The position numbers and the translations under genes were made by a program. Positions 10,136 to 25,885 of a stretch of 64,000 bases of DNA are shown here, piece by piece. A model generated the notes under the pieces. That model searched no databases. It saw nothing but the letters and a program-made list of their open reading frames with translations, and was not told the DNA's origin. The DNA comes from Pirellulaceae bacterium (GTDB lineage Bacteria; Planctomycetota; Planctomycetia; Pirellulales; Pirellulaceae). The number at the start of each line of letters is the position of its first letter. Positions within the stretch are counted from its first letter, which is position 1. The stretch lies in NCBI GenBank assembly GCA_022448645.1, contig JAKVBZ010000005.1:1-64000 (forward strand), written 5' to 3'.

Positions 10136-11656
10136 ATGCTCCAAAGCGATATCGGACTGGACTGGTCAAGCTACCTCGTCATGGGCCTATACTTGGTCGC
10201 AATGATTGGGCTAGGCTCTTGGTTTGGACGCGGAAAAGTCGATACCGAAACGTATCTGCTCGGCGGCCGCTGCATGCCTTGGTGGGTTGTGGGGATCTCC
10301 TATCTGGTTTCCGTGTTTAGCACGGTGTCCTTGGTGTCAGGACCCGGCGAAGCCTATGAACACGGAGCTACCCTGGGGCTGGCGACCATCATCGCCCCAA
10401 TTGCCAGCATCTTTGCATTTCTGATCTTCGTACGATTCTATTTCAAACATCGCATTTTTACTCCATTCGACTACTTGGAACGTCGTTTCGACGCGCGTGT
10501 ACGGGGCATCGTTGCCGCTATGTTCTGCTTAACACGCCTGACATATCTGGCCATGGTACTGTATGCATCCGCCAAGATCCTGCAAGGTGCCGCAGGATGG
10601 CCAATCTGGATTACGATCATCGCGGTTGGAATGATTGGTGTTGTATATACCGTCATGGGAGGAATTCGAGCTGTGATTTGGACCGATCTGATTCAGTTCG
10701 TCGTGTTGGTAGGCGGACTGGCTTGGATCACGGTTGTGCTGTGCGAGCAAGTCCCTGGCGGCGCACAGGGAGTCATCTCCACGGCACAAGCACACGATCA
10801 TTTATTCCCGGATCTCAATAAAGCAGAATTTTATACCTTCGACCCGCGTGTACGTCTGACTCTGGGGTTCATTCTAATCATCTACATTTGTGAAGCACTG
10901 ATGTACAACAGTGGTGACCAAATTGCACTGCAACGACTATTATCAACTTCGTCGTACGAAGCGGCTTGGAAGTCTTTGTTGACGTATGCAGGCGTGCTGT
11001 TACCGTTCCTAAGCGTCTTTTGGTTCGTGGGGATTGGGGTTTATTCCTTTTACATGCATCAACCAGAAGCGGTACGTCCCGAACGTGGCGACCTAGCCCT
11101 TTTCAACTTCATTGCCACCGAACTACCACATCCTGTTCCAGGATTGATCCTGTCGGCCATGCTGGCTGCTGCCATGAGTACACTGGATTCAGGCATGAAC
11201 AGCTTGGCGACGGTGATGACGAAAGACTTTTATTTGCGTTTTCTGCGGCCGGAAGCAACTGAAGAGCGTCAAGTGGCTATTTCGCGCTGGTTGACCTTCT
11301 TGATCGGCGGAGGAGCGATCATTGCCAGTTTGGCAATCTACGTCGTTTCGGAGTGGGCAGAAGACACGATCATGGAAGCGATGATGATCTGGGGGTCGTT
11401 CTCCGCTTTGATCGCTCCCATTTTCCTGCTGGGAGTCACCAGCCGCCGTCTTCGCGCTCGACACGTATTGGTCAGTTTGGGAATCGGCACGATCGTTCTG
11501 CTGGGTCTACTGACTTGGCGAATGCTGCGTGGTGACGAACTTAGTTTTATCGTGGTGACACCATTCACACTTCTGGTGACAGTTGCCGTCGGTTATGCCA
11601 TGACACCCTTTGTAAAGCCACTGCCTCGCGAAGAGACCCGGGATCTAACCTATTAG
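10136..11656 (+). CDS. Sodium:solute symporter (SSS family)
   Basis: A 506-residue integral membrane protein with about 13 hydrophobic segments. AAGGA precedes the ATG. Family features include LVAMIGLGSWFGRG in helix 1, ETYLLGGRCMPWWVVGISYLVSVFS (residues split over helices 1-2, the SSS signature region with the Na+-site residues), and AAAMSTLDSGMNSLATVMTKDFY in the helix-8 region. It probably couples Na+ entry to uptake of a small organic solute such as a sugar, carboxylate or nucleobase. It stands before the catabolic module at 12.4-18.3 kb on the same strand, although 730 bases separate it from the first gene. Confidence 0.9.
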   Translation: MLQSDIGLDWSSYLVMGLYLVAMIGLGSWFGRGKVDTETYLLGGRCMPWWVVGISYLVSVFSTVSLVSGPGEAYEHGATLGLATIIAPIASIFAFLIFVRFYFKHRIFTPFDYLERRFDARVRGIVAAMFCLTRLTYLAMVLYASAKILQGAAGWPIWITIIAVGMIGVVYTVMGGIRAVIWTDLIQFVVLVGGLAWITVVLCEQVPGGAQGVISTAQAHDHLFPDLNKAEFYTFDPRVRLTLGFILIIYICEALMYNSGDQIALQRLLSTSSYEAAWKSLLTYAGVLLPFLSVFWFVGIGVYSFYMHQPEAVRPERGDLALFNFIATELPHPVPGLILSAMLAAAMSTLDSGMNSLATVMTKDFYLRFLRPEATEERQVAISRWLTFLIGGGAIIASLAIYVVSEWAEDTIMEAMMIWGSFSALIAPIFLLGVTSRRLRARHVLVSLGIGTIVLLGLLTWRMLRGDELSFIVVTPFTLLVTVAVGYAMTPFVKPLPREETRDLTY

Positions 11657-12386
11657 TTTGGTGAATTTCACACAATTTTTTTGACCGCCGCCGTTTTATA
11701 CCACGGCTTTCCTGTCGGTACTAAAGTTCTTTTTCCTCCAACACTGAGTCACCATTCGGTGCCTCATACCCTAGATCCACAAACACCCAACTTCCACTTA
11801 CTAACCGTACTGACTTGCCGTTGGCATTCGCCAACTTAACGAACCAAACGACTCGTAAAACAATCAGCGCATCGGGATCACGTTCGAACAGGGCTCACAT
11901 ATCGTCAGGCCCATGACGATGGCGTGTTTTGTGGGCACGATTTTTGCGAGACATGGCTGACGACTTCAACAACGTTGTTGCGCGGCTGGGAGTCAACGAC
12001 GACAACAAAAACTTCATCGTCGCCAGCATATGCTCCATGAGGGCATTTAGCAGAATCGCACTACGAAAAATTACTTTTCTACTTGGGTGTCCAGCGAGAA
12101 TTGGCAGTAAAGAATGGTACACTGATGGGAAAGCATGATTTATGCCAGCGGTAGCACGTCTGCGTCTGACCAAACAATCATGACAACACCATTCAATCTC
12201 TACTCAGCGTTAAGCCGATGATGTCTGGGGTGTCACTGCTGGCTTGGCCCCACAAGGGTACCCACGCAGGTCGAAAAACGATACATTCTTCTACCGCGTG
12301 GCTAAATTGCCACTTCGCATTACCTCGAGGTCAACTTACTGATAGCAGCTAGATCGTTTCTCGATTTTTCTACAAGGGCCTGTGCG
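11657..12386. other. Gene-poor region between symporter and RraA-like gene
   Basis: This 730-base stretch holds no intact gene I can support. Its only coding-like content is the minus-strand frame at 11721-12173, described separately. It should contain the promoter of the 12387 gene cluster, but no convincing -35/-10 pair was identified. Confidence 0.4.
11721..12173 (-). pseudogene. Possible decayed reading frame split by an in-frame TGA
   Basis: On the minus strand an open frame starting at 12173 meets TGA at 11895-11897 and then stays open, in the same frame, for 57 more codons to TAG at 11721-11723. The downstream half has protein-like composition (alternating strands such as IVLRVVWFVKLANA and LVSGSWVFVDLGY) but no start codon of its own. 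I do not recognise the family. It may be a relic, a chance open frame, or a short gene using a non-ATG start. Confidence 0.3.
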
Positions 12387-13052
12387 ATGAGTGCTGAACA
12401 TGTTGAGATCACTTTGGACATGATGCGAGACTCGCTGTACAGCGCATGCGTCGCCGATGCGATCGACAAGGTTGGCTTGCGCCGTCAATCTCCACGAATT
12501 CCTTTTCAGGCCATGACAGGCATTCACAAACTGGTGGGTCGCTGCAAAACGACACTCTGGTTAGATTTCGACTATGATGACCCTAACAGCTACGAACTGG
12601 AGTTGCAGGCGGTGGATAGTTGTCAACCAAACGATGTCGTGATCTGTGCGGCTCAGGGATCCATGCGAGCAGCGATCTGGGGAGAATTATTGTCGCAGGC
12701 CGCGCGAAATGCAGGGGCGGTAGGTGTGATCGCTGACGGTGCTGTCCGCGATATCGCACACATGGAATCCATGGGATTTCCAGCCTTTGCTCGTGGAGCA
12801 AGTGTCTACGATGCCATGCATCGACAAAAAGTCGTTGAATACGATATTCCTGTCGACATAGACGGCGTACGATTTAGCCCTGGTGACCTGGTCATCGCTG
12901 ACAGGGACGGGGTCGTCGTCGTTCCTCAAAGAGTCGAACACGAGGTCATTCAACGAGCTTGGAAAAAAGTGCACGAAGAAAACGAAGTCCGTGAGGCCAT
13001 TCGTAAAGGCATGAAAGCCTGTGACGCCTATCAGCGTTACGGCGTCTTGTAA
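12387..13052 (+). CDS. RraA-like / HMG-aldolase-fold protein
   Basis: A 221-residue protein of the RraA superfamily, which includes 4-hydroxy-4-methyl-2-oxoglutarate/oxaloacetate aldolases-decarboxylases and oxaloacetate hydrolyzing relatives. The family block is clear: WGELLSQAARNAGAVG (98-113) followed by ADGAVRD (116-122), where D117, R121 and D122 match the metal/substrate-binding DGxxRD motif. SPGDLVIADRDGVVVVP near the C-terminus is also typical. In this neighbourhood an aldolase/decarboxylase acting on a carboxylic-acid intermediate is likely. It lies 17 bases upstream of the molybdoenzyme gene, consistent with one operon. Confidence 0.85.
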   Translation: MSAEHVEITLDMMRDSLYSACVADAIDKVGLRRQSPRIPFQAMTGIHKLVGRCKTTLWLDFDYDDPNSYELELQAVDSCQPNDVVICAAQGSMRAAIWGELLSQAARNAGAVGVIADGAVRDIAHMESMGFPAFARGASVYDAMHRQKVVEYDIPVDIDGVRFSPGDLVIADRDGVVVVPQRVEHEVIQRAWKKVHEENEVREAIRKGMKACDAYQRYGVL

Positions 13053-13069
13053 CGCGACACTCAACGACC

Positions 13070-15016
13070 ATGTCGGACTCCCATTCCATCCAGCGACGTA
13101 CGTATTGCAACCGAGACTGCCCGGATGCTTGTGGTATCGTTGCCACGATTGAGGATGGTCGAGTGGTTCGCCTGCAGGGAGACAATGACCATCCTGTCAC
13201 CCAAGGGTTTCTTTGCTACCGCACAAGCCGTTTCTTGGAACATCAATACGACCCCCAGCGTATTACCAGTCCGCTCATGCGGCGAAACGGCTCATTGGAA
13301 CCCGTCAGCTGGGAGGTCGCACTTGACTGCATTGCCAAGAAGTTAATACAGGTCAAGGAGGAGTCCGGACCTGCTGCCATCTTGCACTATCGATCGGGCG
13401 GCTCGATGGGCATGATGAAATTTGTCACGAATTATTTCTTTGAACAATTAGGGCCCGTCGCAATCAAATCGGGCAATGTCTGTTCGGGCGCTGGTGACGC
13501 CGCACAGCTTACCGACTTTGGCGACAAAGACAGCCATGATATGTTCGACGTTCTCCATAGTAAAACCATTCTGATTTGGGGAAAAAACGTCTATAACAGC
13601 AGTGTGCATCTGCTACCTGTGCTACAAGAAGCAAAAAAACGCGGCGCACAGATACTCTTGATTGATCCGGTCTATCATCGCACGGCTCAGCTGTGTGATC
13701 ACTACTTTCAGCCTCGACCGGGAAGTGACATGGCCATCGCCCTTGGCATGGCTCAGGTATTCTTCGAACGTAATTATTGCGATCCCAACGCGGGTAAGTA
13801 CTGCGATCACTTAGATTCGTTTCGGGAACTTGTCTATTCTCAATCCCTGTCAGAGTGGTCCCAACAAACTGACTTACAGGTAGAGGACATTGAATTGTTG
13901 GCGGAGTTGTACCACCGTGGCCCGTCTTCCATTCAAGTCGGTTGGGGGATGCAACGTCGAACCTGGGGATCGTCCACGATTCGAGTTTTGGATGCGTTAG
14001 CAGCCATCTCAGGAAACTTGGGAATTCCCGGAGGCGGTGTTTGCTTTTCGAGTAAATGGCTTGGCAACTTTAACATGTCGTTCCTGAAAGGCATGGCAGC
14101 CGCTCCACGCACCATTCCCGAACCGCTACTTGGTCCCAGCATCCTGGAAGCCAAAGATCCGCCAATCCGGTTCGTTTGGGTCACCTGTGCAAACCCAGTC
14201 ACGATGCTTCCCGAGTCACTAACCGTAGCGCGTGCCTTGGAGTCTCGCGAGTTGACGGTCGTTGTCGATGCTTTCCTGACTGACACCGCACGCTGCGCTG
14301 ACGTTGTGCTACCCACCACAACGATGCTCGAAGATGACGACATTCTAGGATCGTACGGCCATCACTGGATCGCCGAATCCCGTCCTGTTGTACCACCACC
14401 ACCTAACGTCAAAACTGATTTCCAAATTATCCAGGAATTGGCACCTCGTGTCGGCTTGGGGGACACGTTTTCCGAAGATGTCGATACTTGGAAGAAGCGA
14501 ATTTTAGAGCGTGTCGCGCCAGGCGGTGCTACGCTCGACAAACTGCGAACAGGCCCTGTTCGTGATCCATTGTCGACGGAGGTTCTGTTCGCCGACCGTA
14601 AGTTTCACACCAGCTCTGGAAAAGTGAATCTGTTCCATGAACCGCTGCTCGAACCACCCTCGGTATCCAAAGAGCGTCCCCTATTCCTGATGGCAGTCTC
14701 GACCGACAAAGCGCAAGCTTCGCAATGGCTACCCGGTACACAACAGGGGCCTGCCGAAGCTCGGCTCCACCCCGACGCAGCTCCTGCATTCGCTGATGGT
14801 GACCGAGCACGCTTGGAATCGGAAGTCGCCGAGCTGACGGTGATCCTACGGTTCGATGAGCGACAGAGACGAGACGTTGTGTTGATGGATAAAGGAGGCT
14901 GGCTAAGCGCTGGCCGTTGTGCCAACACGCTCGTCCCCGCACGCGCTACCGACGCTGGAGGCTGCGCGGTGTACTACGACACCCCCGTACGCGTGTTGCC
15001 TGATGTACAAGAATGA
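13070..15016 (+). CDS. Molybdopterin-dependent oxidoreductase (DMSO-reductase family), catalytic subunit
   Basis: A 648-residue protein of the bis-MGD oxidoreductase family. Cys13, Cys17, Cys21 and Cys49 form the N-terminal [4Fe-4S] site. The segment SGNVCSGAG puts a Cys (about 138) at the usual Mo-ligand position, as in formate dehydrogenase, nitrate and polysulfide-reductase types. VWVTCANPVTMLPE and DAFLTDTARCADVVLPTTTMLE are the canonical MGD-binding segments, and a C-terminal molybdopterin-dinucleotide domain is present. There is no Tat signal, so it is cytoplasmic, and no adjacent iron-sulfur or membrane subunit. The substrate is unknown. RraA, hydrolase and PLP-enzyme neighbours suggest oxidation or hydroxylation of an organic substrate. 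Confidence 0.9.
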   Translation: MSDSHSIQRRTYCNRDCPDACGIVATIEDGRVVRLQGDNDHPVTQGFLCYRTSRFLEHQYDPQRITSPLMRRNGSLEPVSWEVALDCIAKKLIQVKEESGPAAILHYRSGGSMGMMKFVTNYFFEQLGPVAIKSGNVCSGAGDAAQLTDFGDKDSHDMFDVLHSKTILIWGKNVYNSSVHLLPVLQEAKKRGAQILLIDPVYHRTAQLCDHYFQPRPGSDMAIALGMAQVFFERNYCDPNAGKYCDHLDSFRELVYSQSLSEWSQQTDLQVEDIELLAELYHRGPSSIQVGWGMQRRTWGSSTIRVLDALAAISGNLGIPGGGVCFSSKWLGNFNMSFLKGMAAAPRTIPEPLLGPSILEAKDPPIRFVWVTCANPVTMLPESLTVARALESRELTVVVDAFLTDTARCADVVLPTTTMLEDDDILGSYGHHWIAESRPVVPPPPNVKTDFQIIQELAPRVGLGDTFSEDVDTWKKRILERVAPGGATLDKLRTGPVRDPLSTEVLFADRKFHTSSGKVNLFHEPLLEPPSVSKERPLFLMAVSTDKAQASQWLPGTQQGPAEARLHPDAAPAFADGDRARLESEVAELTVILRFDERQRRDVVLMDKGGWLSAGRCANTLVPARATDAGGCAVYYDTPVRVLPDVQE

Positions 15017-15305
15017 TCACGGGGAGGAAATTGGACAGGATCGACAAACTTGTTTCAGCCTCGTGTCCCTGATTGTGCAAGTTTCCGAGCTTTCCGTTTT
15101 TCTTCTACTTTGCTTTCCGAAACATTCATGATTCATCCAATTTCTCTACCGTTAGCGACCAGACCATTGACGAGCTGGACTTCATGTGTCCAAGCGGTAC
15201 ATTGCACCGATTTTAATTCTAAGATTTCGGTGGCCTCAACAATAATATCGGTGACAAACTGACCGACCACTTGACAGCTCCCACGACCAGTTCGACACTG
15301 ACGAC

Positions 15306-16037
15306 ATGATCATTGATGCGCACGTACATATTGGATCAACACAATACGTTCAGATGGCTGCCGATGCTGAAATGCTGATAGGCATCGCCGACGACGCAGG
15401 TTTTGACCGGATCTTCGTCACTCACCTCACTGCCCTCTTCTACGAAATGCGAGAGGGCAACGACTTGTTGGGCGCCGATTTGGCCCGGTACAGCGATCGC
15501 ATGATCGGCTACGTAACCATCCCCACACATCGCATGGCTGAAGCCGCTTGTGAAGAAATCCGACGATGTGTGGAATGCTATGGAATGCGTGGTGTCAAGA
15601 TCTACTCCCATCCCGATTCTTCGGTTGCTGAATCATGTTCGACCATGATCTTCGAAACGGTCGCTGACCTGGACTTAATCGTACTCGGACATTTTTCTCA
15701 ATCTGAGTGTGATCAGCTGATGCAACGCGTGCCCGAAGCCAAAGTCATCATGGCACATATGGGAGGGACTCCTTATTCCCTGGGAAATTGGCATTTGGCC
15801 GTAGAAGTGGCCGCCCAACATGCGAACCTATTTGTCGATACGGCTTCGTCGATGATCGACAATGGAATGCTAGAATATGCCGTGGAGCATTTGGGCCCGG
15901 AAAAGATTCTATTTGGTACCGACATGCCAGCCCTGGATCCTTGGGTTCAACGTGCCAAAGTGGACGGAGCGGAAATCAGCGACGAGGCCAAACAGCTGAT
16001 CCTGGGTGGGAACGTACAACGCATACTTGGGCTGTAA
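15306..16037 (+). CDS. Amidohydrolase-2-family TIM-barrel metal-dependent hydrolase (intact active site)
   Basis: A 243-residue TIM-barrel hydrolase. The family metal site is visible: DAHVH (H6 and H8) after strand 1, GVKIYSH in the middle, MAHMGG for a later His, and FGTDMP with the conserved catalytic Asp near the C-terminus. Relatives hydrolyse lactones or decarboxylate carboxylic acids. The next gene starts three bases after this stop codon and encodes a paralogue lacking these residues, so the two probably function together. A 290-base gap separates it from the molybdoenzyme. Confidence 0.85.
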   Translation: MIIDAHVHIGSTQYVQMAADAEMLIGIADDAGFDRIFVTHLTALFYEMREGNDLLGADLARYSDRMIGYVTIPTHRMAEAACEEIRRCVECYGMRGVKIYSHPDSSVAESCSTMIFETVADLDLIVLGHFSQSECDQLMQRVPEAKVIMAHMGGTPYSLGNWHLAVEVAAQHANLFVDTASSMIDNGMLEYAVEHLGPEKILFGTDMPALDPWVQRAKVDGAEISDEAKQLILGGNVQRILGL

Positions 16038-16040
16038 TCC

Positions 16041-16796
16041 ATGCGATTCGACATCAACGCATTTTTCGGCCATTGGCCTTATTACCCACTGCCGCAGACA
16101 AGCGGCGAGGACGTGCTGCGTTTGATGGATCGCTTTCAAATCGATCGTGCAGCCATGACGTCCTTGCGAGCAATGCACGGAGATTGGGGCGAAGCGAACG
16201 CAGAAACCTTGCGCTTTACTCGAGAACATGCAGACCGGCTTACTCCGATCGCTTGCATGAGTCCCATGCTGAACGGAGGCGGTGACAAATTGCGGGAACT
16301 GGTTGAGGAAGGTTGTCGCGCCGTGAGGCTCTATCCGGGTTTAGCACAAGGATATCATTTGGGTAGTCCGTTTGCCGACGACATCGTTTCTACGGCGGGA
16401 ACACTGGGAATTCCTGCGATCGTTCCCACTCGTCCCATGATGCACTTTCGCTTCCCTCCTGTGCCCATCCCACAGATCACTGCGTTGGCCTCACGCCATC
16501 CGCAAACCCAAATCATCTTGTCCGGCCCGAACTATCTGCTGGAATTCACGATGGCGGTCGAAGCATTACAGGCTAGCCCCAACATGACGATCGAAATCTC
16601 TTGCATGCAAGGTTTTCGTGGTCTGGATTTCATGGTGGATGCGGTCGGTGCGCAACGAGTCTTATTTGGGACAGGCCTGCCATTGCACTATGCCGCCTGC
16701 GGCACTGCAAAACTGGAACACTCGAAGTTGACAGCCGATCAGCTAGCTGCCGTTTCGTCTCAAAACGCCGTGCGACTGTTGGGATTGGATCAATGA
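16041..16796 (+). CDS. Amidohydrolase-like TIM-barrel protein with lost metal ligands
   Basis: A 251-residue protein that aligns over its length with the preceding gene product (IPAIVPTRP, ILSGPNYLLEFTM, VLFGTGLPL). The strand-1 HxH is replaced by NAF (residues 6-8), and the Asp of FGTD is replaced by Gly (FGTG). Both metal-binding and catalytic positions are thus gone, and it is probably not a hydrolase by itself. It may be a structural or regulatory partner of the intact paralogue. Its stop overlaps the next start (ATGA at 16793-16796), so translational coupling is likely. Confidence 0.8.
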   Translation: MRFDINAFFGHWPYYPLPQTSGEDVLRLMDRFQIDRAAMTSLRAMHGDWGEANAETLRFTREHADRLTPIACMSPMLNGGGDKLRELVEEGCRAVRLYPGLAQGYHLGSPFADDIVSTAGTLGIPAIVPTRPMMHFRFPPVPIPQITALASRHPQTQIILSGPNYLLEFTMAVEALQASPNMTIEISCMQGFRGLDFMVDAVGAQRVLFGTGLPLHYAACGTAKLEHSKLTADQLAAVSSQNAVRLLGLDQ

Positions 16797-17902
16797 GTCT
16801 ATGGCGCTGGTCAGATTGGCTACCGGAGACTCCTCAAAAAGCTCGCATCGACTTGGGGGCGGGTAATACCCCTTTGATTCGTTCGGCACGAATCGGACCC
16901 GACATCGGCCTCAAGAATCTCTTCTTCAAACTCGAAAACAACAATCCGTCTGGTTCCTATAAGGACCGTTTCGCTGCGGTGGCTATTTCTCACATGGTGG
17001 CGACCCAGAAGACCCACTGCATTGCGTCGACCAGTGGAAACAGCGGCGCATCTTTAGCAGCGCACTGCGCGGCGGCAAATGTCCAATGTGAGATTTGCGT
17101 CATCGTCACAGCTCCCGACGGAAAGCTGGATCAGATGCGAGCCTACGGCGCTAATGTTTACAAGGTCGAAGGCTTTGGCACCAATGATGACATGACCCAC
17201 CGCATTTTTCACTATCTCACCTGGCTAGGTGAACAGCCCGGTGGCATGCTGCAAATCAGTGCCTTTGCCTGGAGCCCCATAGGAATGCAGGGAGTGAAAA
17301 CGATCAGCTATGAACTGGTGGAGCAAATGGACACCCCGATGGATCACGTTTTCAGCCCGGTCAGTGGAGGCGGATTGACATTGGCAATTGCTCGTGGTTT
17401 TGAGGACATGGTCGCTTGCGGCACCTTATCCCGTGGACCAAAGATCGAATGCGTGCAACCCGCAGGTAACAACACAGTCGCAGGTCCATTACGCGACGGA
17501 GCCGACCGCGCAACACCAGTTCAATGGACCACCCAGATTAGTGGATTGCAATGTGCCAGTATCCTCGACGGCCACGAATTGATCACAGCCGCTCGACACA
17601 CAGGAGGTAGCGGGCATCTGGTTTCTGACGAACAGATATGGCACGCCCAGTCTCGATTGACGCGAGAAGAAGGAATCTTTTGCGAACCGGCCGGCGCCGC
17701 CGCATTGGCCGGCGTTTTGGCAGCTTGGGATCAAGGCCAGCTGAGTGCCGATGCGAATGTCGTTTGTCTGGTAACCGGTGCTGGTTTCAAAGACCCACTT
17801 TCCATCAAACGACTCCTGTCGAATGAAGAGGTGCCAACACATACGTTGTCTGAACTCGTTCGGAATTCCAATGCACCGGAAAGCTTACTGCCGCCAGGTT
17901 AG
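16793..17902 (+). CDS. Threonine-synthase-like PLP-dependent enzyme (fold type II)
   Basis: A 369-residue PLP enzyme of the threonine synthase/threonine dehydratase family. The PLP lysine is K57 in NPSGSYKDRFA; STSGNSGASLA is the substrate-carboxylate/phosphate loop and PVSGGGLTLAIARG the PLP-phosphate glycine loop. The ATG overlaps the stop of the preceding gene by four bases, which fixes the start. It is shorter than housekeeping threonine synthases and sits in a catabolic context, so an eliminase or lyase role, releasing an enamine that RidA would hydrolyse, is plausible. Its 3' end overlaps the convergent RidA gene by four bases. Confidence 0.85.
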   Translation: MSLWRWSDWLPETPQKARIDLGAGNTPLIRSARIGPDIGLKNLFFKLENNNPSGSYKDRFAAVAISHMVATQKTHCIASTSGNSGASLAAHCAAANVQCEICVIVTAPDGKLDQMRAYGANVYKVEGFGTNDDMTHRIFHYLTWLGEQPGGMLQISAFAWSPIGMQGVKTISYELVEQMDTPMDHVFSPVSGGGLTLAIARGFEDMVACGTLSRGPKIECVQPAGNNTVAGPLRDGADRATPVQWTTQISGLQCASILDGHELITAARHTGGSGHLVSDEQIWHAQSRLTREEGIFCEPAGAAALAGVLAAWDQGQLSADANVVCLVTGAGFKDPLSIKRLLSNEEVPTHTLSELVRNSNAPESLLPPG

Positions 17903-18279
17903 CCCGCGTAGGCCACCACATCCACCGCAACTCGACCGTCACACGGCAGACACCCCATCAACATGGTTCGAACCGGATAAGGTTGGCTGAGAGTCTGTTG
18001 ATAGACACGGTTAAAACCCGCAATGTCGTCAACGTTCGCCAAATAACAGCGCACTTGAACAATATCACTCAATGCTAAGCCTGCCTTGGCAAGCAAACCT
18101 TGAATGTTTGCAAAGGTCAACCGTGTTTCCGTTTCGATAGAGCCACTGACGATCTGGCCATTCTCATCCGAAGCAAATTGCGCCGAGAGAAAGACAAAAT
18201 CACCGGCCCGTATTGCCTGAGATGTAGGAATACCTGCTGCAGCCCCGGAAACCGGTTCGGCTTGGATCACGGTAAACAC
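17899..18279 (-). CDS. RidA/YjgF-family enamine/imine deaminase-like protein
   Basis: A 126-residue RidA-family protein. SQAIRAGDFVFLSAQFA, FANIQGLLAKAGLALSDIVQVRCYL and PVRTMLMGCLPCDG are the family core, with the conserved active-site Arg in PVRT. The Glu usual near the C-terminus (VEIE) is replaced (VAVD), so it may belong to a divergent subgroup. Classical RidA hydrolyses reactive enamines/imines released by PLP enzymes. It converges on the threonine-synthase-like gene with overlapping stop codons (17899-17902), so it is not co-transcribed with that gene but may serve the same pathway. Confidence 0.85.
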   Translation of the reverse strand: MFTVIQAEPVSGAAAGIPTSQAIRAGDFVFLSAQFASDENGQIVSGSIETETRLTFANIQGLLAKAGLALSDIVQVRCYLANVDDIAGFNRVYQQTLSQPYPVRTMLMGCLPCDGRVAVDVVAYAG

Positions 18280-18971
18280 TCTGACACACTCCTTCTTGGT
18301 CGATTGTCATGTACCGAAGTTGATTGCTCACGACCGCCCGCATCACCAACAAAAATCCCTTTGTCAAATCCAGCCACATCGGTTCCCGTAAACCGATTGA
18401 CACAAATGTTTTCGTTAGCCAGATCCAACATGTTTTGATGATGCCCTTGAAGACGTGTGAAGTCGACAAAGCTCATCAATGCCGGCATGCTATTGTTCGG
18501 ACAAACACGCAAGGCCGCACCAGACGACCAGGATTCGACGGTCCCGAATTGATAGCGACAAGCATTCATGCCTCGAAGAACAATGGCATCTCCTTCGGCA
18601 CGATCATAATGCGGATGAGTTCCCAACGCCTGAATCGAACAATTCGCAGCGTCGGGAATTTCCAACGTCTCGGTCAGATGATAACTGCCGGCCGCCCACT
18701 CCACGGTATGATTTAATGCACACCGAACGGTCTTTTGTGTCTTGGGATTGATGTCGAGATCCGTTTTCCCCTGTGGGACTTCGGCAAACGCTGCCGCCAA
18801 TTCCATTTGATCGTCTTTTCCATCGCAGACGTAGTCCGCTCTCGCCTTGTCACGCAGAGACGAATCAGCAGCCGCAACAAGAATGGCAGCCAGGCAGTGT
18901 CCAGCACAGCCAATATTGAAAAACAGCAAACCAAATACGAAGAGACGGCGAAGTAGAATAGCCAAGTGCAT
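18267..18971 (-). pseudogene. Truncated right-handed beta-helix (pectate-lyase-like) protein
   Basis: The frame encodes a signal peptide (hydrophobic residues about 8-30), then ADYVCDGKDDQMELAAAFAE and VEWAAGSYHL, the start of secreted beta-helix proteins in which a 'DG.DD' repeat is followed by GGTVxLxxGxY. The homology runs to GFDKGIFVGDA and then changes into unrelated sequence that ends over the RidA start. Most of the expected beta-helix is missing, so this looks like a 3'-deleted gene. Confidence 0.55.
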
Positions 18972-19004: not shown

Positions 19005-19886
19005 CTAAATACGATAGACGGTTTCTGCATTGACACAAAACAAAGACTTTCGTTCGTCTACCGAAAACCCTTGAGTGATCTCATCAAACGCAGTCCAGAC
19101 TCGTACATAGTCTGAAAACAGTTTATCGACGGGAAAATTCGAGGCAAACATCGATCGCTCAACGCCAAAAAAGTCGAGCGTTTGTAGCACATATGGCCGG
19201 AAGCTTTCGACAGTCCATTCATGATCAAACATACCGAGCCCTGAAATCTTCACAAACACGTTGTCTCGTTTTGACAATGCTGCCAAACCGTCTCGCCATT
19301 GCCGATATCCTTCCAAGGTACGATCGACGAACATGCCAGTATGGTTTAATACAAAAACCGTATCAGGACTTGCGTCGATGATTCGGCACGCATCTGGAAC
19401 CTGTTTTGGATATAGCTGTAGATCGAACGATAGATCAAACTTCTTAAGCAACTGGAATTGATGGCACCAAGTTGAGTCATTGAGGTAATCAGTATCCACA
19501 TAGTTATAAACTGGATCCATGTGACGATTTAGGATCTGGCGGATTCCTCGCACGTTGTCAAATGCTCGATGTTGCTCCAAGATTGATTCAACATCCGGCG
19601 ACGACAGATCGGCTGCTGCCACAATACCTTGAGGAAAATCGCCTTCATCGGCGAGACTTTGCAGCCATCGAGTTTCATCGATGGGCGACTTTGGATTTCT
19701 CAGCGCCTCGACATGTACGATCTTGACGATTTCGATATCCTTGGCACCTTCGAAGAGATCTGGGGGAAGGAATCTTCGATCAAGTCGATTCGCTGCACCA
19801 ATGAATGTTTCGGCAGTACTTGTGAGCCATTGATAGGCGTCCGTTCCCAGCTCCCAAAAATGAATATGTGGGTCAACGATTTGCAT
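19005..19886 (-). CDS. Amidohydrolase-2 family protein (L-fuconolactonase-like)
   Basis: A 293-residue TIM-barrel hydrolase starting DPHIHFWE, where H7 and H9 are the strand-1 metal ligands. VLNHTG with a conserved His, KISGL and MFASNFPVDKL match L-fucono-1,5-lactonase and 2-pyrone-4,6-dicarboxylate lactonase relatives. It probably opens a sugar lactone in the cytoplasm, but the exact substrate is unknown. It is larger than, and only distantly related to, the two hydrolases at 15.3-16.8 kb. Confidence 0.85.
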   Translation of the reverse strand: MQIVDPHIHFWELGTDAYQWLTSTAETFIGAANRLDRRFLPPDLFEGAKDIEIVKIVHVEALRNPKSPIDETRWLQSLADEGDFPQGIVAAADLSSPDVESILEQHRAFDNVRGIRQILNRHMDPVYNYVDTDYLNDSTWCHQFQLLKKFDLSFDLQLYPKQVPDACRIIDASPDTVFVLNHTGMFVDRTLEGYRQWRDGLAALSKRDNVFVKISGLGMFDHEWTVESFRPYVLQTLDFFGVERSMFASNFPVDKLFSDYVRVWTAFDEITQGFSVDERKSLFCVNAETVYRI

Positions 19887-23725: not shown

Positions 23726-25885
23726 ATGGCACGATTCTTAATCCTACCGCAAGCTCCATGGAAAACTCTATGGAGCGTCTGGATGCTGATGATGTGCTGC
23801 TGTCCCTCGGACGGTTTTTCGGTTGAGTATCGTAGTTTTGACGGTACGGGAAACAACATAGGATCACCGTCTAACGGAATGGCAGGCGCTAACTTCATTC
23901 GCTTCGGCTACGGCCATCGTTTCGAGGACGTTGTCGGCGACGTTCTCAAGCAAGGTTTGCCGAGTCCTCGTGACATTAGCAATCGAATCAGTCCACAAAC
24001 TAGCAGCGTACCCAATGCGCGTCATCTGAGTGACTGGGTCGTTCAATGGGGTCAATTCCTGTCGCACGATCTTTCACGGGCTAGTAACGGAGGCAATGGT
24101 GACACGTTGTCAACAGGCGCGACGGTTTCTTTTTCGATTCCGGTATTGGATCCGAATGACGTCTTGGGCCCGATGCCGATTTCTTTTCACCGTACGAATT
24201 ATGATCCCAACACGGGGCTACAGGGCCCTCCCAACGTAGCTCGAGAACAAGTCAATCAAATGACGGCCTACGTGGATGGTTCACAAATCTACGGATCGGA
24301 CACGATTCGTGCGACGGCTCTCAGGACGTTATCGGACGGGTTATTGGCAACCTCAGCAGGGGGCTCATTGCCAGGACTGAATACAGACAATACGTTCCCG
24401 AATCAGGATCCATTTGGTCTGGGTGCCTCTTTGTTTCTAGCTGGTGACATTCGCGCTAATGAAAACGTGGGCTTGACCGCCACCCATGCGTTATTTGTTC
24501 GCGAACACAATCGGCTAGCCGGCCTACTCAAACAACAAAATGGTAACTTGACGGACGAGGAGCTATTCCAGTTAAGCCGCAAGATTGTGGGAGCCGAGTT
24601 ACAAAAGATCACTTACGAGGAATTCCTTCCGGCAATCCTGGGAACTTCCGCTCCTCGGGCGGCAGATTACAGCTATGATTCGTCTTTAAACGCCGCCATT
24701 ACCAATTCGTTCACGACAGCATTTTTCCGGTTCGGTCACAGTATGCAATCGCCTGCCATTACCTTAGTGGATAATGCTGGAACTCAAACTGGTAGCCTCG
24801 CCGTACGAGACGCTTTCTTTAATGTGGCCTTTTTCAATGATCCCAATAACGTCGACCTGGTACTCAAAGGACTCGCCAACCAGGTAGCTCAAGAGAACGA
24901 CCCCATGCTCGTCGATGATTTGCGAAACTTCTTATTCGGGCCCCCGGGTGCGGGGGGACTGGATCTCGCAGCTCTTGACATCCAGCGTGGTCGTGACCAT
25001 GGACTCCCCGGCTACAACTCGCTACGACTGGCTTACGGACTAACACTACAAGGTTTTTCACAGATTAGTTCCGACGCTTCGGTCACTCAAGCCTTGATGG
25101 ACCTTTACAGCACGGCCGGAGACATCGATCCCTTTATCGGAGCGATTGCCGAAGACCAAGTGGCAGGAACCGTACTCGGTGAACTGGCCGGATCCGTGCT
25201 CACCAATCAGTTCGATCGACTACGGGATGGCGATCGATTCTTTTATACGGGAGATCCGGATCTACAATTGCCGGACGTTCAAGCCGTAATTGACTTGGAC
25301 GAAATCACACTGTCCCAAATCATCGAGCTAAACACTGGGGTTTCTGTCTTGCAGGAGAATGTATTCTATGTCGCGGAAGAAAGCCGCTGTGACTTTAGCG
25401 GCGATCTGGTATGCGATGTCCAAGACATCGACTTGCTGTATGCTCAGGGTAACCTGGTCTCGGGCGTATCTGTTCCTTCGGAAAACGCGTTTGACCTCAA
25501 CGGTGACCTACTGCTTGATCAGGCCGACCTAACTCAATGGCTTTCTGAAGCCGCCGTTGTCAACGGCTATGCAACCTCATACCGTCGAGGAGACAGCGAC
25601 AATGTACTCTCCACTGGAATTCGCAATGTGGACATCACCGACTTTTCACAACTTTCTAACTTCTTTGACCCCACCGGCGCGGCAGGATCTGCGAACACCT
25701 GGCAACGAGGAAACTTCGACGGTGATGCGGATATCGACATTACTGACTTTACATTGCTCACTGGGAATTTTTCACCGTCGTCATATAATACAGCGGTTCC
25801 TGAGCCTTCTGTCTGGATGGTCATCCTGTATAGTGGTTTGATCTTCTTGGCAATCGGAAAACGAAACGTTGTCCATAGTGTTTAG
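23726..25885 (+). CDS. Animal-type haem peroxidase with dockerin-like repeats and PEP-CTERM tail
   Basis: A 719-residue exported protein. After a hydrophobic N-terminus comes a peroxidasin/cyclooxygenase-superfamily domain (about 35-540): distal WGQFLSHDL (His114), FVREHNRLA (Arg259, Glu260), proximal FRFGHSM (His338) and LDIQRGRDHGLPGYN. The Asp that links haem covalently in mammalian enzymes is Ser113 here, while the following Ca-ligand Asp115 is kept. Between about 555 and 690 are three calcium-loop, dockerin-like repeats (CDFSGDLVCDVQDID, FDLNGDLLLDQADL, GNFDGDADIDITDF). The end VPEPS plus hydrophobic helix plus basic residues is a PEP-CTERM signal. It is probably attached to the surface by exosortase and oxidises halides or phenolics. 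Confidence 0.9.
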   Translation: MARFLILPQAPWKTLWSVWMLMMCCCPSDGFSVEYRSFDGTGNNIGSPSNGMAGANFIRFGYGHRFEDVVGDVLKQGLPSPRDISNRISPQTSSVPNARHLSDWVVQWGQFLSHDLSRASNGGNGDTLSTGATVSFSIPVLDPNDVLGPMPISFHRTNYDPNTGLQGPPNVAREQVNQMTAYVDGSQIYGSDTIRATALRTLSDGLLATSAGGSLPGLNTDNTFPNQDPFGLGASLFLAGDIRANENVGLTATHALFVREHNRLAGLLKQQNGNLTDEELFQLSRKIVGAELQKITYEEFLPAILGTSAPRAADYSYDSSLNAAITNSFTTAFFRFGHSMQSPAITLVDNAGTQTGSLAVRDAFFNVAFFNDPNNVDLVLKGLANQVAQENDPMLVDDLRNFLFGPPGAGGLDLAALDIQRGRDHGLPGYNSLRLAYGLTLQGFSQISSDASVTQALMDLYSTAGDIDPFIGAIAEDQVAGTVLGELAGSVLTNQFDRLRDGDRFFYTGDPDLQLPDVQAVIDLDEITLSQIIELNTGVSVLQENVFYVAEESRCDFSGDLVCDVQDIDLLYAQGNLVSGVSVPSENAFDLNGDLLLDQADLTQWLSEAAVVNGYATSYRRGDSDNVLSTGIRNVDITDFSQLSNFFDPTGAAGSANTWQRGNFDGDADIDITDFTLLTGNFSPSSYNTAVPEPSVWMVILYSGLIFLAIGKRNVVHSV

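Follow-up and report, generated by a model that had tools for sequence, protein, structure and literature searches.

We describe an uneven pair of adjacent genes found in a stretch of 64,000 nucleotides from a Pirellulaceae bacterium (contig JAKVBZ010000005.1 of assembly GCA_022448645.1, positions 1 to 64,000), hereafter called the window. Both genes encode TIM-barrel proteins of the Amidohydro_2 family (PF04909), referred to below as AH1 and AH2. The metal site is intact in AH1 and has been lost from AH2. Since uneven pairs of this kind recur side by side or fused in bacteria and haloarchaea, the two proteins are probably subunits of one enzyme. They may represent a large branch of Amidohydro_2, seen in Planctomycetota, Chloroflexota, an actinomycete and haloarchaea. 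It may consist of obligate two-part enzymes, in which a metal-free twin completes the active site and neither protein works alone, a generalization to which we give slightly less than even chances.

Metal ligands of AH1 and AH2

AH1 keeps all five metal-binding or catalytic residues: an HxH motif (H6 and H8), H129 in strand beta-5, H151 in beta-6 and D206 in beta-8. These were equated by motif order with His9, His11, His177, His228 and Asp294 of ACMSD (PMC11650718). At the same five positions AH2 carries N, F, P, G and G. A first-pass annotation of the locus, made from the window alone, had presented both proteins as hydrolases. For AH2, from which every one of the five residues is gone, the label is unsupported.

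AH2 served as the search anchor on account of its narrow close family, in which 88 proteins were found at E <= 1e-3, with five named organisms among the rows (four planctomycetal and one actinomycete, the latter a weak match). None of the five residues is present in 78 of these proteins, one is present in 2, and two or more in 8, seven of which are the seven weakest rows. When viral contigs were scanned once with the alignment of AH2, no relative turned up. In what follows, proteins that keep none or one of the five residues are called ligand-less and those that keep four or five are called intact. By this definition the 136 classified rows comprise 66 intact proteins (all with five out of five), 67 ligand-less proteins and 3 in between. 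A profile search that started from second-tier ligand-less proteins scored 7998 candidates and yielded at least 4211 proteins at E <= 1e-15; among the 120 listed, 99 keep no residue and 21 keep one. Many of these 120 bear the name "predicted TIM-barrel fold metal-dependent hydrolase", and one name is verrucomicrobial.

The ligand-less group has a conserved set of its own: D4, N6, W12, N53, R96, P99, Y105, R206, K224 and N242 in AH2 numbering (conservation 0.78-0.99), with several of the group's conserved residues at or just after predicted barrel strands. The loop that follows strand 5 has R131 and R137 as conserved residues in the close family of AH2, and D136 and R138 (their own numbering) in the second-tier relatives. 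The conserved set of the ligand-less group could belong to a second, metal-independent enzyme, for example an isomerase or a lyase, acting at the step before or after AH1, and the linkage and fusion of the genes would then reflect sequential catalysis and not a composite active site. We consider this improbable: the residues at the old ligand positions vary between ligand-less subfamilies, which fits a partner role better than a fixed chemistry, and the pair persists amid very different neighbours. It is still more doubtful, indeed very unlikely, that AH2 is a metalloenzyme of altered site whose metal is bound by new ligands. A histidine does occur at the position of D206 in 19 of the 67 ligand-less rows, and histidine is common (0.82) at AH2 position 103, but AH2 of the window carries G and Q at these two places. 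Moreover, the ligand-less columns conserved at >=0.7 contain no C or E, have H only at 103 and D only at 4 (0.97) and 48 (0.79), and D4 is common to the intact group as well.

Recurrence of the uneven pair

Scanning genomes with an alignment of the AH2 family (alignment A1) located 15 loci, of which 10 are planctomycetal and 5 chloroflexotal. AH1 adjoins AH2 in all 15, and the AH1-AH2 pair is the conserved core of the cluster. Matches of A1 at E <= 1e-20, with intact-type proteins among them, came from 46 of the 296 Pirellulales genomes sampled, where up to 9 candidates per genome were scored, and from 33 of the 347 Phycisphaerae genomes, where the limit was 7. The best matches define 60 planctomycete loci, 5 of which repeat the 15-locus set. 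A ligand-less gene is present in 56 of the 60, and for 51 of these 56 an intact partner lies within 153 bases, in every case on the same strand; 41 of the pairs begin with the intact gene and 10 with the ligand-less one. Two ligand-less genes without a partner are contig-end cases, one being cut (L047; an AH1 fragment is visible, L151) and the other near the end (L060; L159). Among 201 genomes of Chloroflexota 23 match, and the 20 loci obtained from this phylum (3 repeating the 15-locus set) include 14 with a ligand-less gene, which has an intact neighbour in 14 cases out of 14.

As a control, PF04909 was searched in five genomes (G001, G002, G004, G005 and G009), with 52 matches at E <= 1e-8. 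Fourteen of these are joined in 7 pairs, tandem or fused, and the other 38 occur singly, so that tandem PF04909 genes are not the rule. All 7 pairs associate an intact with a ligand-less member (Fisher p 0.0007); five of them were the basis on which the genomes were chosen, and two (L191 and L192) are independent. In the ligand-less half of L192 an HxH-like string was also picked up, away from the strand-1 place. A loose motif search of the 38 singles detected an N-terminal HxH together with a C-terminal D motif in 23; a further 3 have HxH alone, 10 have the D motif alone and 2 have neither (L206, and L229, which is a fragment).

The two types also occur as natural fusions. In L067 (553 amino acids, aa) and L073 (549 aa) a ligand-less domain is followed by an intact domain in a single open frame, and the same arrangement is found in L192 (586 aa). 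A tblastn search of AH2 against plasmids returned six records, five haloarchaeal and one of Nonomuraea. The six haloarchaeal plasmid proteins examined, 541-565 aa long, are all two-domain fusions, intact-first in five cases and ligand-less-first in one (residues of the halves read by eye). The Nonomuraea record holds two separate pairs (the intact member of one was read by eye). Neighbours of the haloarchaeal fusions include Gfo/Idh/MocA proteins (L232 and L233), a class III aminotransferase (L231) and a DegT aminotransferase (L236). The L231 record contains one further annotated amidohydrolase, of ~330 aa.

Probable shared history of the two types

In a quick IQ-TREE phylogeny of the 136 rows, the 67 ligand-less rows stand on one side of a single branch with a Shimodaira-Hasegawa-like approximate likelihood ratio (SH-aLRT) support of 99, and sub-clades recur on the intact and ligand-less sides. 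A tree of 149 rows, which includes the fusion halves and one distant outgroup row, has one change per group. The identity distances of one partner are correlated with those of the other over 62 loci (Pearson 0.942, Spearman 0.815), and 0 of 1000 permutations gave a correlation as high. In the simplest history a gene would have been duplicated once, one of the copies would have lost its metal site, and the two would have been inherited together thereafter. The mean distance is 0.696 on the AH2 side vs 0.635 on the AH1 side. This somewhat higher divergence, together with the lost catalytic residues, might be expected of a decaying relic without function. Such a relic is hardly credible, since the ligand-less genes have open frames of similar length, show columns conserved across distant phyla and are fused to an intact partner.

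Several observations weigh against two subunits of one enzyme. The ligand-less genes L021, L026 and L029 have no intact partner within ~6 kb on each side, or up to a contig end on one side. Intact genes stand alone in two planctomycete loci (L045 and L070) and three chloroflexotal loci (L170, L179 and L182); partners of an intermediate state, with 2-3 of the 5 residues, occur in L066, L068 and L173, and an intermediate protein stands alone in the chloroflexotal loci L181 and L183. The five-genome control becomes weak once the five chosen pairs are removed (p 0.039). Several rows are long-branched in both trees, and with the very distant outgroup row the ligand-less side has a support of 2 (92 for the intact side). 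Co-inheritance alone raises a correlation of divergences and explains part of the one given above. Gene linkage, the retention or loss of ligands, the placing in the tree, the correlated divergences, the fusions and the predicted folds come from the sequences; from them we infer the physical complex, the completion of the site across subunits, the type of reaction and the role in a pathway.

Predicted structure and proposed mechanism

Predictions of single chains give the same barrel for AH1 and AH2, with predicted local distance difference test (pLDDT) values of 92.4 and 90.8. The best structure match of both is PDB entry 3cjp, that is CAC3332 of Clostridium acetobutylicum, an uncharacterised amidohydrolase whose chain is short like those of AH1 and AH2; dihydroxybenzoate decarboxylases and ACMSD rank high. 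ACMSD and the gamma-resorcylate / 2,6-dihydroxybenzoate decarboxylases (PF04909) resemble AH1 in their fold and in the five residues. They are homo-oligomers with chains of ~330 aa, whereas the pair described here has a separate metal-less paralogue and chains of ~250 aa. The ACMSD monomer is inactive because a neighbouring subunit supplies a substrate-binding arginine (PMC9021598, PMC11650718). Subunits of ACMSD thus complete each other's active site, which serves as a precedent for AH1-AH2.

In the mechanism that we propose, AH1 would do the chemistry at a site for one metal, like that of ACMSD and the dihydroxybenzoate decarboxylases; its reaction may be the hydrolysis or the decarboxylation of a small carboxylate. 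AH2 would have arisen by an ancient duplication and lost its metal ligands, while keeping conserved residues of its own. It would most likely pair with AH1 and complete or gate the AH1 active site, as neighbouring subunits do in ACMSD.

A dead paralogue that completes a live enzyme is a known principle. The pseudo-dihydroorotase of bacterial ATCase follows it in another branch of the amidohydrolase superfamily. In trypanosomes, AdoMetDC and its dead paralogue form an enzyme-prozyme pair (PMC6221367); the principle is alike, the dead paralogue activating or completing the live one, and AdoMetDC is an unrelated enzyme. No account of such pairs of intact and dead Amidohydro_2 proteins was found in the literature searched, which covered few subscription papers.

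If AH1 and AH2 do form one enzyme, some of the proteins named "predicted TIM-barrel fold metal-dependent hydrolase" would be partner subunits and not metalloenzymes, and an activity may escape assays of the intact partner alone. The principle of an enzyme with a dead paralogue would then extend to a catabolic family of bacteria and archaea, for which the natural fusions of haloarchaea provide a ready experimental handle.

Genes of the window locus

The first-pass annotation had listed seven open reading frames (ORFs) in this region. A check of the ORFs and a Pfam scan bear out all seven together with their family assignments (Table 1).

Table 1. Genes of the AH1-AH2 locus in the window, with Pfam matches.
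Gene product	Coordinates	Strand	Pfam match
SSF sodium:solute symporter	10136..11656	+	PF00474, 174.6 bits
RraA-like protein, adjoins Mo gene in the window	12387..13052	+	PF03737, 116.9 bits (gathering score 24.5)
Molybdopterin oxidoreductase (Mo), FdhF-like, with Fe4S4 domain	13070..15016	+	PF04879, PF00384, PF01568
AH1, Amidohydro_2 TIM barrel, probable catalytic partner	15306..16037	+	PF04909, 100.3 bits (gathering score 26.4)
AH2, metal-less Amidohydro_2 paralogue, probable partner subunit	16041..16796	+	PF04909, above gathering score
Pyridoxal phosphate (PLP) fold-type-II enzyme (PALP), threonine-synthase-like	16793..17902	+	PF00291, 233.5 bits
RidA-like protein (Ribonuc_L-PSP), convergent with PLP gene	17899..18279	-	PF01042, 78.8 bits (gathering score 27.3)

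The spacing first described is exact for RraA-Mo (17 bases), AH1-AH2 (3 bases) and AH2-PLP (an overlap of 4 bases, ATGA); between Mo and AH1 there are 289 bases, not 290. RidA had been placed at the end of the cluster. It does overlap the PLP gene by 4 bases, but tail to tail and on the opposite strand; as it lies on the minus strand, it is therefore not the end of the PLP-side transcript. The symporter had been counted as a member. It is located 730 bases upstream of RraA, and the flanks of L001 and L002, the two loci closest in content to that of the window, contain no such gene as far as searched; its membership is unsupported.

The scores obtained with more specific models are all below their cut-offs. 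The PLP enzyme falls under those of threonine synthase (TIGR00260, 133.2 vs 167.1 bits; PRK08197, 188.6 vs 303) and is a probable amino acid lyase. The Mo enzyme is under the cut-off of the formate dehydrogenase alpha subunit (TIGR01591, 226.9 vs 666.25), and the RidA-like protein under that of TIGR00004 (75.4 vs 106.25). The RraA-like protein is under that of the LigK aldolase (4-carboxy-4-hydroxy-2-oxoadipate aldolase, TIGR02798, 89.8 vs 304.5 bits). The LigI/LigJ/LigK set for protocatechuate 4,5-cleavage comprises two Amidohydro_2 enzymes and an RraA-like aldolase, and its family names are like those of the window locus. A pathway of this type was rejected because of the lost metal ligands of the window AH2 and the low LigK score of the RraA-like protein.

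Neighbourhood of the pair

The first-pass annotation offered a possible order for its six-gene module: uptake by the symporter, oxidation by the Mo enzyme, opening of a ring or lactone, cleavage by RraA and elimination by the PLP enzyme, with RidA as a protein that normally clears enamines released by PLP lyases. This pathway is compatible with AH1 and AH2 being two subunits. It is partly supported by the neighbourhoods of the pair, and as a whole we regard it as rather unlikely. Matches to the neighbouring genes were recorded at the 15 pair loci above 60 bits and within the fetched flanks. Two planctomycetal loci reproduce the order Mo-AH1-AH2-PLP with a convergent RidA, the identities to the window proteins being 75% for Mo, 78% for PLP and 67% for RidA in L001, and 68%, 72% and 60% in L002. 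Both come from marine samples, as read from the isolate names. A close Mo, PLP or convergent RidA gene is present in none of the other 13 loci, and RraA in none of the 15. RraA orthologues do exist in G001 (69%) and G002 (65%), on contigs apart from the pair, at a distance that the draft state of both genomes leaves undefined.

The eight other planctomycetal loci set the pair among different neighbours. In L005, a protein scan identified an SSF protein, a Gfo/Idh/MocA protein, a class III aminotransferase and a large DUF4861 protein upstream of the pair. Clustering of the proteins from 16 neighbourhoods (the window and the 15 loci) found relatives of this large DUF4861 protein in 8 and of this aminotransferase in 5. 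In all five loci of Chloroflexota the pair is flanked by a protein from a cluster of xylose-isomerase-like TIM barrels, as identified by a Pfam scan of its L014 member. Four of the five (L011, L012, L014 and L015) also have a molybdopterin oxidoreductase gene on the strand opposite to the pair and 4-5 kb away, the fifth locus being on a contig of 5 kb. It is ~24% identical to the window Mo where aligned (Pfam scan of the L015 copy). In three of the five a protein clustering with RidA is present ~9 kb from the pair. The distant Mo relative and the protein clustering with RidA speak for the pathway, as does the RidA gene found directly 3' of the fused pair in one haloarchaeal plasmid (L233).

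Outside the pair loci, PLP paralogues occur next to RraA or RidA. In L184 (G002) the RraA orthologue and a PLP paralogue of 60% identity stand beside an M81/MlrC protein and a major facilitator superfamily (MFS) transporter; in L186 (G001) a PLP paralogue (49%) is found with a short-chain dehydrogenase/reductase (SDR), a DoeB-like deacylase, an M81/MlrC protein and RidA. PLP, RidA, RraA and M81 thus form a recurrent association, in which the links of PLP with RraA and with RidA also favour the pathway. Two further loci, L150 (neighbours from a protein scan) and L152 (by clustering), have an intact and ligand-less pair adjoining Peptidase C26-like, further Amidohydro_2 and dihydropyrimidine-dehydrogenase-like proteins.

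The Mo enzyme argues in the other direction. Its family is large (at least 2312 proteins at E <= 1e-30, among the best 7994 candidates scored), and at E <= 1e-100 relatives were detected in 14 of the 296 Pirellulales genomes and in 24 of 294 genomes of a phylum sample. The first-pass annotation proposed conservation of its neighbourhood across Planctomycetota as a check, and this does not hold beyond L001 and L002. With G001 and G002 excluded, 36 Mo loci were examined over 1.5 kb, or as far as the contig reaches, and none shows RraA, AH1, AH2, PLP or RidA at >70 bits; in a subset of 20 with flanks of up to 8 kb, none of the five was detected at >45 bits. At one of these Mo loci, a scan of the neighbours identified CotH, Beta-CASP, ScpB and others. 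Conversely, a close Mo orthologue is present in 2 of the 15 pair genomes (G001 and G002) and absent from the other 13; 8 of the 15 have some Mo match at E <= 1e-10. The Mo enzyme was thus rejected as the anchor of a widespread module, notwithstanding the distant oxidoreductase near the chloroflexotal pair; in its close form it characterises the version that the window shares with L001 and L002. In this version the two-part enzyme would work within a catabolic cassette with the Mo oxidoreductase, the PLP enzyme and the convergent RidA: the product of AH1-AH2 may undergo elimination by the PLP enzyme, followed by removal of an enamine by RidA. If the two-part enzyme is real, the guess of a six-step pathway would give way to a testable two-protein unit. 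Mo homologues of G011, G013 and G014 (Chloroflexota) have a frame of ~640 aa with one in-frame TGA and are possible selenoproteins.

Other features of the locus

Terminator-like sites are no more frequent in the region than in shuffled sequence (4 vs a shuffle mean of 8.7), and 3 of the 4 are located in the gap between the symporter and RraA genes. Promoter-like sites are at chance level (6 vs a shuffle mean of 6.3). In and around the gaps of the locus there is no Rfam family at its gathering score and no inverted repeat above chance. Three ORFs beyond the locus complete the picture. On the minus strand, an ORF of 234 aa (18267-18971) overlaps the start of RidA and has no Pfam match, and a third Amidohydro_2 protein (19005-19886) is L-fucono-1,5-lactonase-like, with 94.6 bits vs a curated cut-off of 400. 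On the plus strand, a large ORF (23726-25885) resembles, as judged by eye, a haem peroxidase that ends in a PEP-type C-terminal anchor.

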